Shown piece by piece: positions 54,871 to 61,563 of a stretch of DNA of 64,000 bases. The notes under the pieces are model-generated. The model ran no database searches. It was not told where the DNA came from and worked only from the letters and a program-made list of their open reading frames with translations. This stretch comes from Yersinia artesiana (lineage in GTDB: Bacteria > Pseudomonadota > Gammaproteobacteria > Enterobacterales > Enterobacteriaceae). The translations under genes and the position numbers were made by a program. The stretch covers positions 1-64,000 of the forward strand of contig NZ_CACVAD010000026.1 of NCBI RefSeq assembly GCF_902726545.1, read 5' to 3'. Position 1 is the stretch's first letter, and every line of letters begins with the position of its first letter.

Positions 54871-56532
54871 TTAAGTCTCAGGCGGTGTAAACCAGGCCGA
54901 TTTGAAATCAAACCAGCCGAGTGTATTCATACGTACACCACGCATACTGTGTTGCCCGTATAATTCTAGCCAGTGATGGAACAAGGGATGGAATTGATTT
55001 TGGCTGACCAGTCGTTGGCTCCAATCCGCCATCTGCAAGGTATTATTGCGCCATAATTCAACATCTTGGTGTAACTCTTCATCCAGGCAATATTGCAGTA
55101 GCGGCAGCTCATATAAAGTGGCAAACAGAGAAAACTCCAGTGGCAGATAGAAGTTTGCGCTGCCAAGCCACATGTCGCTCTGGGCATCCCCCTGATACCA
55201 CTGTGTGTAGTCCACCACATGTATTTTTAAATTAACACCTTGATCTTCTAGCAATTTTGTTAGCGTCTGACTGATGGCATCAAACTCTGAATGGTGACTG
55301 TAAAAGGTGAGAGTCAGTTCGGTTAAACCTTCCGGTTTCGCTTCCAGAGCGGTGAGCCGGTTGTGATGCCAGCGTGGCAACATGCCGTAAGCCGGTGACC
55401 AATAGCGCTGATAAAAAGGGTCTGCGTGGCTGAGCAGAGCGACGGGCGTAATCAGTTCACAGAGCCAGCGGCGAATAGCAGGATTGCGGGTCAGGGGAGA
55501 GCGCTGGTCAAACAGTAAAAAATAGCAGCCTTCTTCCAGCCGGCTTTCCAGCTCATTTTTGCTGGTATCGTCAGCCTGCAATTGTACGCCGGAATAAACC
55601 AACTCTTCGGATAGCTCTGGTAGCACCCAGATATTGACCTCATCAATCAGTGCACGGAAACCGAAATAGTTATCAAAAGCCTGAATTTTCAATTGGCTCT
55701 GGTGATTACGAATCACAGAATAAGGGCCAGTCCCAATAGGATGCCGACGAAAATCAGGTTGATTTTCCCACTCTTGTGGCAAGATCATGGCGTGCGCACT
55801 GCCCAACAACCACGGCAGCCAGTTATCTGGGGCGCTAAGATGCACATCAATGACATACGGCGTGGGTGAACGCACCGCCGTGATATGTGAAAACAGCGGT
55901 TGCGGGATTAATCGGGTCAGACTGGTAATCACATCATTCATTTCCAGCTCACGGCCGTGGTGAAAATGTATCGCCGGGCGTAAATAAAAGCGCCAATGCA
56001 ATGGGCTGATGGCTTGCCAGTGATGAGATAAGTCTGGTTCTAGTTCCCCATTTTCCTCATTTATCCGCGTCAGACCATTAAAAATCTGCCGTACCATATG
56101 GGTTTCTGATCGGCGTAGCGCTGTGCCGGGCAGGAGGTTCTGTAATGGGCGGTAATAGAGCACGCGTAGAATATGTTTACCTTGCCGAAAGCTGCGCCCT
56201 AACTGAGATAGCAGCATTTGGCGTACCGCTTTTTTATCCCCGACCAATTGCACCAACTGATCAATACTCTCTTGTTCCAGTAACTCTTCGGCCCGCTGTT
56301 GTTGTAAGGCTAAACCGGAATAGAGAAAGGTCAATTGTGAGCGCTTACCTCGGCCCGCTTCCGCCTGCCAGCTAAGCCACCCTTCTTGCTGCATGCTCCC
56401 CAGCAAAGAACGCACATGGCGGCGCGAACAGCACAGCACTTCGGCCAGCTCCTGCAAGGTGGTTTCTGTTGGTAAACCGCTAAAACGTTGCCAGAGGCGA
56501 ATGAACTGTTGTTGCAGGCGAGAGGTAGACAT
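54871..56532 (-). CDS. sgrR: glucose-phosphate stress regulator SgrR
   Basis: SgrR is a transcription activator that senses sugar-phosphate stress and switches on the small RNA SgrS. The protein is 553 residues (E. coli 551). The N-terminal winged helix has [13 protein letters not shown] and [39 protein letters not shown]. The remaining 400 residues are an SBP_bac_5-type solute-binding domain. ATG 56532 follows AGGAG by ten bases; the in-frame 56553 start is a TTG. It diverges from ybiY, and their promoters share a 125-base gap (56533-56657). Confidence 0.97.
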
Positions 56533-56657
56533 AAAAGAGGAACTCCTCGGCAAATTTCATCAATTTTTCTTTCCCTATATTACGCAGATACTGGTTGCCA
56601 ATGAAAGTAAGTTAACGCGGCAATGTCGGCGCAATCACAGCCAATGGGAGGGATAAG

Positions 56658-57557
56658 ATGATTTTTAATTTACAACGTTATTCCACCCATGACGGCCCCG
56701 GTATTCGCAGCGTGGTATTTCTCAAAGGCTGCTCACTGAGCTGCCGCTGGTGCCAAAACCCAGAAAGTCGCTCACGCCAGCCAGAGGTGTTATTTGACTC
56801 GCGCCTGTGTTTAGCAGGCTGTGACTTGTGTCAGCAAACTTGCCCGCAAGCCATCCAACGTATTGATAATAAAATTGTTATTCATCGCCAGCAATTAGCA
56901 GAAAACGATATTCAGGCACTGACGGTTCGCTGCCCTAGCGGTGCCCTGACAGTGTGTGGCAGCCCGATTGATATTGATGCCACTATGGAGACATTGTTAC
57001 GCGACTTGCCATTTTATCGGCGTAGCGGCGGTGGGGTAACGTTGTCCGGCGGTGAGCCTTTTATGCAACCAGCGGTGGCGGCTGAATTATTGCAGCGCTG
57101 TCACCAGCAAGGTATCCATACTGCGGTTGAGTCTTGCCTGCATACCCCGTGGCGCTATATCGCCCCTTCTTTACCATGGCTTGATTTGATGCTGGCGGAT
57201 TTGAAACACACCGATGAGCAACGTTTTCAACAGTGGACGGGCGGTTCAGCCAGGCGGGTGATGGAAAATTTTCGCAAATTAGCGGCGGCAGGTACCAATA
57301 TCACCGTAAGGGTGCCCTTAATCCCAGATTTCAATGCTGACCGCCGCTCGGTACAAGGCATTGTCGATTTTGCTGCGGATGAAATTGGCGTGAAAGAGAT
57401 TCACTTTTTGCCTTATCACACGCTGGGCATCAACAAATATTCACTGCTGGGTGAAGAGTATCTGGCAGCCAAGACACCTTTAGATTCTCCTGACCTGCTG
57501 GCCTTTGCGGAAAGTTATGCCCGTGACAAGGGTCTTACCGCAATTTTAAGAGGATGA
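56658..57557 (+). CDS. ybiY: glycyl-radical enzyme activase YbiY
   Basis: This 299-residue radical-SAM protein installs the glycyl radical on the enzyme encoded next to it. The radical-SAM cysteines are Cys25, Cys29 and Cys32 ([11 protein letters not shown]3CX2C). A ferredoxin-like cluster region follows with Cys51, 55, 58 and 62 ([12 protein letters not shown]). SGGEPFMQ is the SAM-binding GGE motif. The start follows GGGAGGGA. ybiW begins four bases after its stop. Alternatively it could be called PflC; the neighbour and its length favour YbiY. Confidence 0.9.
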
Positions 57558-57561
57558 CGCA

Positions 57562-59994: not shown

Positions 59995-60110
59995 TTAACT
60001 GTTTTAAAGGGTTTTTTGAGTAATGAGTCTTGCTGTAGTCCTGAGTTCCAAAAATTTCTGAGTAATGGTGTTTTTCACCAGCCAGTGGGTTATACCACTG
60101 GCTTTTTTTA
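59995..60110 (+). ncRNA. sgrS: SgrS small RNA, 3' portion
   Basis: Four parts match the E. coli SgrS 3' end in order. CTGAGTAATGGTG (60058-60070) resembles the ptsG-pairing CTGAGTATTGGTG. The small hairpin GGTG-TTTTT-CACC follows (60067-60079). The 9-bp terminator stem (60080-60088 with 60095-60103) has loop GTTATA (E. coli ATTATA), and a seven-T run supplies the Hfq-binding tail. SgrS blocks ptsG translation during glucose-phosphate stress. The 5' end is not resolved and may lie inside ybiW. A downstream setA completes the E. coli order sgrR-sgrS-setA. Confidence 0.85.
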
Positions 60111-60239
60111 TTACTCTTCGCACTTGAAGCTGTGGCGTTGTTAGCTGCGTTCACGCACCCGAATCACTTACTTGAGTAAGCTCATCGGGATTTGTTCACT
60201 TGCTGCCTGGTTGTAACCCCAATGACTTTGGCTAATACC
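60111..60239 (+). repeat. diverged ERIC element (about 129 bp)
   Basis: The core CACCCGAATCACTTACTTGAGTAAGCTCATCGGGATT is the ERIC centre and CACTTGAAGCTG is the left end, but the right end (GGTTGTAACCCCAATGACT) is worn. It lies between the SgrS terminator and setA. The bases to 60381 hold the setA promoter region and no gene. Confidence 0.85.
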
Positions 60240-60381
60240 TTGCGTCTTTGGTGCTGAAACAAGATTCACGGTATCAATTATTTGGCGGTAAATTTATGCG
60301 GCTTATCTATTTTTCTCTATATAAATCTGCGCGCTTCTGTAGCATAGCGTTCACTCGCTGTTTCTGGCGCTGGAGCCTGGA

Positions 60382-61563
60382 ATGAAATCTGCATTAACCT
60401 TTTCCCGTCGTATCAACCCGGTTTTTCTTGCATTCTTTGTGGTGGCTTTTCTTTCTGGTATTGCCGGTGCTCTGCAGGCTCCTACCTTAAGCCTATTTTT
60501 AAGCACCGAAGTGAAAGTGCGCCCGCTATGGGTTGGGCTATTTTATACCGTCAATGCTATCGCGGGGATCACCGTCAGCTTTGTGTTAGCCAAGCGCTCG
60601 GATGCTCGAGGGGATCGCCGCAAGCTGATTATGGTTTGCTATCTGATGGCGGTGGGGAACTGCCTGCTGTTTGCTTTTAATCGTGATTATCTCACCTTGA
60701 TCACCGCCGGTGTTTTGCTGGCCTCGGTGGCTAACACCGCCATGCCACAGATTTTCGCTCTGGCGCGTGAATATGCCGATAGCTCAGCTCGCGAAGTGGT
60801 GATGTTTAGCTCAATTATGCGTGCGCAGCTTTCATTGGCGTGGGTTATCGGGCCGCCATTGTCATTTATGCTGGTGCTGAATTATGGCTTTACTCTGATG
60901 TTCAGTATTGCCGCGGGTATCTTTGTGCTGAGTGCGCTGGTGGTGTGGTTTATTTTGCCGTCGGTGAAGCGAACCGAGCCGGTGATGGATGCGCCTGTGG
61001 TTGCGCAGGGTAGCCTGTTTGCTGATAAAGATGTCCTGCTGCTGTTTATTGCCTCAATGCTGATGTGGACATGCAACACCATGTACATCATTGATATGCC
61101 GTTATATATCACTGCTAATCTGGGGCTGCCGGAGCGGCTGGCCGGCTTATTGATGGGAACGGCGGCTGGGCTGGAAATTCCTATTATGCTGCTGGCAGGT
61201 TATTCGGTTAGGCGTTTTGGTAAGCGTAAAATTATGCTGTTCGCCGTGTTGGCTGGCGTGCTGTTTTATACCGGGCTGGTGTTATTTAAATTTAAAACAG
61301 CATTGATGTTATTGCAGATTTTTAATGCCATTTTCATCGGTATTGTTGCCGGTATTGGGATGCTTTATTTTCAGGATTTAATGCCGGGCAGAGCGGGGGC
61401 TGCCACCACACTGTTTACCAACAGTATTTCCACTGGGGTGATTCTGGCGGGGGTGCTGCAAGGAGTATTAACGGAAACCTGGGGTCATAATTCGGTGTAT
61501 GTCATGGCGATGATCCTCGCCATTCTTTCGCTTATTATTTGTGCGCGAGTGAGAGAGGCTTAG
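60382..61563 (+). CDS. setA: sugar efflux transporter SetA
   Basis: SetA is a major-facilitator exporter of sugars and glucosides, such as glucose, lactose and IPTG. The protein is 393 residues (E. coli 392) with 12 membrane segments. The motifs QAPTLSLFLSTEVKVRPLWVGLFYTVNAI and AKRSDARGDRRKLIMVCYLM are typical. In E. coli SgrS stabilises the setA message from within the sgrS-setA transcript region. Here it follows the SgrS-like RNA and an ERIC element, so a separate promoter is possible. Confidence 0.96.
   Translation: MKSALTFSRRINPVFLAFFVVAFLSGIAGALQAPTLSLFLSTEVKVRPLWVGLFYTVNAIAGITVSFVLAKRSDARGDRRKLIMVCYLMAVGNCLLFAFNRDYLTLITAGVLLASVANTAMPQIFALAREYADSSAREVVMFSSIMRAQLSLAWVIGPPLSFMLVLNYGFTLMFSIAAGIFVLSALVVWFILPSVKRTEPVMDAPVVAQGSLFADKDVLLLFIASMLMWTCNTMYIIDMPLYITANLGLPERLAGLLMGTAAGLEIPIMLLAGYSVRRFGKRKIMLFAVLAGVLFYTGLVLFKFKTALMLLQIFNAIFIGIVAGIGMLYFQDLMPGRAGAATTLFTNSISTGVILAGVLQGVLTETWGHNSVYVMAMILAILSLIICARVREA

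Follow-up and report, generated by a model that had tools for sequence, protein, structure and literature searches.

The ybiYW glycyl-radical enzyme operon lies inside the sgrS small-RNA gene in most Yersinia

Here, we report on a 64,000-nucleotide (nt) stretch of Yersinia artesiana DNA (contig NZ_CACVAD010000026.1, positions 1 to 64,000; hereafter the window), in which the genes for the glycyl-radical enzyme YbiW and its activase YbiY are located inside sgrS, the small-RNA gene next to the sugar-phosphate stress regulator gene sgrR. The two enzyme genes lie between the sgrS promoter and the base-pairing domain of SgrS, at the place of sgrT, whose product is a small protein that blocks a transporter, as the sgrS promoter stands upstream of ybiY and a spacer, the SgrS seed and the SgrS terminator follow ybiW. 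The regulator gene is encoded on the minus strand, and ybiY, ybiW, a short SgrS and setA on the plus strand. A previous sequence-only reading had placed ybiYW between sgrR and SgrS/setA; all genes that it named are present, and the operon sits, more exactly, within sgrS itself.

The ybiYW operon within the sgrS gene

The locus in the window comprises the following features:
54871..56532, minus strand: sgrR, transcription activator of the sugar-phosphate stress response (NF010149, 1038 bits, cut-off 476; PF12793 SgrR_N)
56558..56592, plus strand: sgrS-type promoter box with CATCAA, -35 TTTTTC (56564-56569), 17-nt TTTCCCTATATTACGCA and -10 GATACT (56587-56592)
near 56600, plus strand: predicted transcription start behind the box, the hexamers being set from the annotated start in Escherichia coli K-12
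56600..56657, plus strand: 58-nt ybiY 5' leader with GGGAGG ribosome site, at the former beginning of sgrT
56658..57557, plus strand: ybiY, radical-SAM activase of glycyl-radical enzymes (TIGR02494, 346.7 bits)
57562..59994, plus strand: ybiW, glycyl-radical enzyme, ortholog of E. coli YbiW (PF02901/PF01228)
59995..60057, plus strand: spacer from the ybiW stop to the SgrS seed, little conserved except for its last ten bases
60043..60109, plus strand: SgrS 3' domain (Rfam RF00534, 37.6 bits, barely over the threshold of 37)
60058-60070, plus strand: SgrS seed CTGAGTAATGGTG, followed by a small hairpin
60080-60103, plus strand: SgrS terminator stem and T tail, a terminator-like site in the scan
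60382..61563, plus strand: setA, sugar efflux transporter (TIGR00899, 527.6 bits, cut-off 522.3)
The sgrR start is the ATG at 56532, chosen by homology with K-12; the longest open reading frame (ORF) starts at a TTG at 56553.

The K-12 sgrS promoter reads TTTTAT-17 nt-AATAAT by our assignment of hexamers from the annotated start at the G of GATGAAG, and is followed by sgrT, the seed CTGAGTATTGGTG and the terminator. Its counterpart in the window, TTTTTC-TTTCCCTATATTACGCA-GATACT...ATGAAAG (56564-56607), lies upstream of ybiY. This core promoter precedes ybiY in 21/21 Yersinia with the insertion, with 0-2 mismatches over 23 bases, and is also found in 4/4 Yersinia without the insertion, in 16/20 sgrR upstream regions of other genera and in K-12. 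It was absent from all ybiY upstream regions of other genera (0/75). In front of the seed, the 21 inserted genomes match the 23-base core only at shuffle level (10-12 mismatches). Among the 21, column conservation is 0.93-1.00 through the -10 and 0.71-0.84 beyond it. The distance from the predicted start to ybiY is 57-58 nt in 15/21 genomes and 36-58 nt in 19/21 (full range 36-194 nt), which leaves little space for another ybiY promoter. The longest leader, 194 nt in G002, contains repeated short units (L066 5369-5616). A homologous sgrS promoter is thus present ahead of ybiY, with SgrR binding and activation putative, and we regard dependence of ybiYW on SgrR as likely from this promoter sequence. 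In the accessible part of PMC4021124, the sgrR-sgrS intergenic region is stated to be highly conserved across the organisms considered; this fits the promoter in most Yersinia, but about 3.4 kb now part promoter and seed.

Downstream of ybiW, the seed (CTGAGTAxTGGTG) is exact in 21/21 genomes and is followed by the terminator region, at 32-104 nt from the ybiW stop. Anchored on the seed, spacer conservation is 0.86 in the last 10 nt and 0.40-0.56 farther out. The RF00534 match lacks most of the model's 5' part. An assumed 108-nt SgrS (60002-60109) folds at -29.3 kcal/mol (z -2.4; 5/200 shuffles as good) with a small hairpin and the terminator at its 3' end. In the window genome, the ptsG leader CACTATTACTCAGGAG, before the ATG by the ribosome site, pairs with the seed over 13 bases including one G-U, an alignment made by eye in this genome only. 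The RNA therefore has the seed, the terminator before setA and the ptsG complementarity of SgrS, and lacks an SgrR-type promoter directly upstream, where ybiYW intervenes. No sgrT was found in the window genome (best E 0.23), and so no dual-function SgrS/SgrT.

Comparison of sgrR neighbourhoods revealed ybiYW between sgrR and setA in 21/25 Yersinia genomes, which include the six named Yersinia loci of our YbiW search, so the possibility raised in the earlier reading that the arrangement occurs in only one strain falls away. The exceptions are G001, G005, G008 and G011. G001, G008 and G011 branch early, form a clade with support 0.996 in a tree of sgrR and setA (supports computed by bipartition), and retain the promoter, a 58-amino-acid SgrT-like ORF and the seed, with no ybiYW at this place; the SgrT-like ORF of G008 shares 45% identity with K-12 SgrT across 38 amino acids (E 1e-8). 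The 21 genomes with the insertion plus G005 form a clade with support 0.993, and all 21 cases probably trace back to a single insertion. In G005, which also has no ybiYW at sgrS, promoter and seed are preserved together with what remains of a ybiY leader. The G005 stretch from the -10 to the seed matches the ybiY leader of the inserted genomes (score 48, reached by 0/300 shuffles), weakly the spacer behind ybiW (24, 3/300) and not the sgrT region (20, 26/300). As this stretch matches the ybiY leader and not the sgrT region, G005 probably lost ybiYW after the insertion. Alternatively, sgrT may have been lost before the insertion, given that support for the 21 genomes alone is just 0.515. G005 additionally carries a separate fsa-ybiY-ybiW-yciT set (L089 1482-6784, C29; 73/61/82/57% identity) that adjoins genes unlike the native fsa neighbours and was apparently gained later. 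In Y. massiliensis CCUG 53443 (G010), ybiY (L074 6010-6907; L096) matches as two overlapping pieces; either the activase gene is broken or the sequence contains an error.

The fsa locus as putative source of ybiYW

The window YbiW has its closest named relative in Y. proxima (99% identity) among the best 80 of 232 relatives, nine of which have shortened flanks. Of the 74 named non-Yersinia loci in this set, 62 have ybiW near fsa, and none has sgrR or setA within the flanks (0/74). In the 45 non-Yersinia genomes with both YbiW and SgrR, out of 149 family genomes sampled, the two are on separate contigs or >200 kb apart (45/45). In K-12, sgrR, sgrS/sgrT and setA are neighbours and ybiYW is elsewhere, as the earlier reading had described for E. 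coli; the operon is found at 860-863.5 kb, next to fsaA and some 780 kb from the sugar-stress genes. In another genus (L179, G161), the promoter box is 86 nt from the seed, compared with 204 in K-12, which suggests an independent loss of the sgrT part.

The former place of ybiYW may still be recognizable. The gene order in Serratia oryzae, with names that we partly assume, is rnb, cstA-like, fsa, ybiY, ybiW, a DeoR-type regulator (yciT), aldolase and pyrF. Contig 29 of the window genome shows this order too, except that ybiYW is missing and fsa directly adjoins the gene of a YciT-type regulator with 60% identity to E. coli YciT (232 residues); E. coli yciT lies between pyrF and rnb. The fsa gene is found in 24/25 Yersinia (G031, a 94% complete genome, gave no FSA match at E 0.001), and none of these 24 loci contains ybiYW (0/24). 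The regulator gene stands beside fsa in 20/20 loci of genomes with ybiYW in sgrS and in 0/4 others, a pattern that is suggestive only, because the four genomes without it represent about two lineages. These neighbourhoods point to a move of ybiYW from between fsa and the yciT-like gene into sgrS.

The operon also appears to have exchanged its control sites. A YciT-type palindrome (ACTTTCnTTCGAAAGT, <=2 mismatches) occurs in 72/75 ybiY upstream regions of other genera and in 20/24 Yersinia fsa upstream regions. The pattern was read by eye in nine ybiY upstream regions, eight of which are among the 75 counted, and the 75 come from closely related enterobacteria and are not independent; their shuffles gave 1/225 at <=3 mismatches. 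The sgrR-ybiY regions, most of which fall short of the 200- and 400-base stretches compared, have no palindrome at <=2 mismatches (0/21) or at 3 (0/21). A site resembling the FNR consensus as we assume it (TTGATnnnnATCAA, <=1 mismatch) was present in 62/75 ybiY upstream regions of other genera (shuffles 2/225) and in 13/24 Yersinia fsa upstream regions, and again in 0/21 sgrR-ybiY regions. Judged from these sites, the promoter has been swapped: the YciT-type and FNR-like sites are gone and the sgrS core promoter stands in their stead. Presence of the sgrS promoter ahead of ybiY together with this loss strengthens the link of ybiYW to SgrR.

For E. coli, the accessible text of PMC8464067 reports YciT binding ahead of ybiY and of fsaA and altered expression when yciT is deleted. 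According to the parts available of the preprint PMC12132413, the ybiYW start is active anaerobically, and also under glucose plus ampicillin in a single replicate, YciT is enriched there, and the activator is left unidentified. In other genera (L098-L171) and K-12, the FNR-like site is located beside the YciT-type palindrome upstream of ybiY, which suggests direct anaerobic activation of ybiYW and makes this site a candidate for that activator's target.

Putative joint expression with SgrS and competing explanations

Window YbiW shares 85% of its residues with K-12 YbiW along all 810 amino acids, with intact GCIE and RVAGYSAFF motifs that we take to contain the active cysteine and the glycyl loop, respectively. 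It has the glycyl-radical enzyme domains and is orthologous to E. coli YbiW (PDB structures 8id7 and 8yjn), so that lyase activity is predicted. No second YbiW-type enzyme was found in the window genome, and its three further glycyl-radical-domain matches are presumably PflB-, NrdD- and GrcA-like. FSA takes over after the YbiW step. E. coli YbiW is reported to cleave 1,5-anhydroglucitol-6-phosphate to 1-deoxyfructose-6-phosphate, only without oxygen, in the accessible portion of a review (PMC12441222), which agrees with the substrate named in the earlier reading. YbiW proteins in the inserted genomes compared are 96-99% identical to that of the window, and synonymous codon identity of ybiW averages 0.61 (standard deviation of windows 0.06; 20 of 21 genomes, G017 being excluded for a ybiW match of other length), which argues that the protein is under selection. 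The first 20 ybiW codons (window 57562-57621) show elevated synonymous conservation (0.80) in the same 20 genomes.

Taken as a whole, we consider the following scenario likely. In an ancestor common to most Yersinia, the ybiYW operon would have left its site between fsa and the yciT-like gene, entered sgrS and replaced the sgrT half, shedding its own control sites and gaining the SgrR-activated sgrS promoter. Accumulating sugar phosphates would act through SgrR to induce a single ybiY-ybiW-SgrS transcript, from whose 3' end SgrS, consisting of seed, hairpin and terminator, would be freed by RNase processing to pair with ptsG. YbiY would activate YbiW, which would split 1,5-anhydroglucitol-6-phosphate without oxygen and would thereby remove a poorly metabolised sugar phosphate, beyond the mere block of uptake. 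For the step that yields the small RNA, our confidence is lower: SgrS is, on balance, probably made from the ybiYW transcript. It could equally be true or false that a split small-RNA gene survives as the 3' end of an enzyme operon mRNA, such that an SgrR-induced transcript carries both an enzyme that removes a stress metabolite and an RNA that stops import, with the enzyme standing in for the SgrT protein.

Several observations weigh against this scenario. The fsa gene stayed behind with YciT-type sites, outside the reach of the sgrS promoter, and a single review (PMC12441222) is the source for the YbiW reaction. The enzyme needs anaerobiosis, yet an FNR-like site is lacking ahead of ybiY. 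The promoter box also lies in the 5' region of sgrR, so part of its conservation could be due to sgrR; judged by the consensus, the box has weak hexamers, and it does not appear in the generic promoter scan. The 21 cases are not independent, since they probably descend from one event. Lastly, deep sequencing detects Yersinia SgrS as a small RNA, as stated in the available text of PMC4585118, although this is not decisive because an own promoter fits the detection as well as processing does.

Such an own promoter would have to lie in the 3' end of ybiW or in the spacer, and the locus would then consist of two units, with the sgrS promoter driving ybiYW only. Reports of a small RNA SgrS in both Y. 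pestis and Y. pseudotuberculosis (PMC4585118, PMC3493969, PMC4202721; accessible parts) speak for it, weak activator-dependent promoters need not appear conserved, and a TGTAAT hexamer overlaps the window ybiW stop. However, the spacer varies in length and is poorly conserved beyond its last ten bases, the last 20 ybiW codons have ordinary synonymous conservation (0.62 compared with the mean of 0.61; 20 genomes), no sgrS-like box precedes the seed in 21/21 genomes, and the promoter scan of the window gave no promoter-like match at the ybiW end or spacer. We therefore think two units unlikely, though a real possibility; no conserved SgrS promoter is seen, and the status of SgrS as a processed, 3'-derived RNA is predicted.

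It is less probable still that relocation brought no role in sugar stress at all, with ybiYW weakly expressed or under a separate promoter and its neighbourhood accidental. The single probable event behind the counts and the apparent loss of ybiYW from sgrS in G005 would fit an accident, but selection on the YbiW protein, a promoter that is near-invariant through the -10 with conservation falling only afterwards, and the short distance between predicted start and ybiY do not. A different purpose with the same anatomy and promoter would be feeding on 1,5-anhydroglucitol, with SgrR sensing its phosphate. Growth of E. coli on 1,5-anhydroglucitol via the YbiW pathway is reported in the part of PMC12441222 available, and Yersinia have kept fsa, with the yciT-like gene beside it in all inserted genomes that have the fsa locus. 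Co-expressed SgrS would, however, cut sugar uptake, which would be odd for a feeding pathway, and fsa is outside the control of the sgrS promoter; feeding is hence a tentative proposal that we rather doubt.

Relation to known systems and biological meaning

The Yersinia locus resembles the SgrR-SgrS/SgrT-SetA system of E. coli K-12 in both end genes, the core promoter, the seed and the position of the terminator. It differs in having ybiYW instead of sgrT and the 5' part of SgrS, which consists of the 3' domain alone. The earlier reading had tentatively united a detoxifying enzyme, a sugar exporter and a brake on sugar uptake in one module; an enzyme operon has indeed joined the conserved SgrR-SgrS-SetA locus behind the sgrS promoter, but more has changed than the addition of one enzyme to the E. 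coli set, because fsa is elsewhere, the enzyme is reportedly anaerobic and SgrT has been lost. Compared with the fsa-ybiYW 1,5-anhydroglucitol-6-phosphate lyase module of E. coli, Serratia and others, enzyme and activase are orthologous, whereas Yersinia ybiYW is apart from fsa and lacks the YciT-type and FNR-like sites. Small RNAs derived from the 3' untranslated region (UTR) of mRNAs by RNase E are a general class. SgrS would be like them in using the terminator of the upstream mRNA, and no conserved promoter of its own is seen. It differs in that the small RNA is ancient and conserved whereas the mRNA arrived later, with processing predicted.

A 5'-truncated SgrS without sgrT that still acts on E. 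coli ptsG is already published for Y. pestis (Ysr150, sR005), as described in the accessible texts of PMC4585118, PMC3493969 and PMC4202721, and the window SgrS shares the truncation and the absence of sgrT. We propose the ybiYW insertion as the cause of this truncation: SgrS would be short because ybiYW replaced its sgrT half. The available portions of reviews on the truncated Yersinia SgrS give no cause and mention neither ybiYW nor a shared transcript, in a search that left aside the primary papers on SgrS homologs, where the two genes may be noted. Our search on SgrS, pyruvate formate lyase and Yersinia found no paper joining them, the portions seen of literature joining SgrS and ybiW held nothing bearing on the Yersinia arrangement, and SgrS is not mentioned in the main texts of PMC3770706 and PMC4376681.

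Further features were recorded around the locus. Between tbpA and sgrR, the window contains a DUF4225 protein gene and an ORF of 113 amino acids (53557-54736), an accessory insertion present, among the stretches compared, in the window genome, G009, G012 and G015. The distance from seed to setA ranges from 183 to 805 nt across the 21 Yersinia, suggesting insertions behind the SgrS terminator (window 60110-60381). Rfam matches in the window include a TPP riboswitch before tbpA (53189-53298, minus strand) and, on the plus strand, DapZ (26744-26818), Ysr224 (34594-34700) and tpke11 (15372-15448). The window genome encodes a second SgrR-like regulator of 596 amino acids, about 41% identical to SgrR (C42:28562-30358; L090 3075-4865), with a match in 17/25 Yersinia and neighbours that by eye resemble aroE and a quinone reductase, and a third, more distant SgrR-like protein (29%) at C23.

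That Yersinia SgrS has lost SgrT was noted long ago, and the insertion provides a concrete reason for it. The insertion would also link YbiW, whose function was assigned recently, to the stress response governed by SgrR. It is a clean case of natural promoter swapping, in which an operon drops its regulator sites and takes over the promoter of a small RNA. To our knowledge, the natural inducer of SgrR is not settled; if our scenario is true, 1,5-anhydroglucitol-6-phosphate would be a candidate for the natural SgrR signal. Likewise, a 3' UTR small RNA would here have been born by a small-RNA promoter capturing an mRNA, rather than by a small RNA arising within an mRNA, which provides a testable route for the origin of 3' UTR small RNAs.

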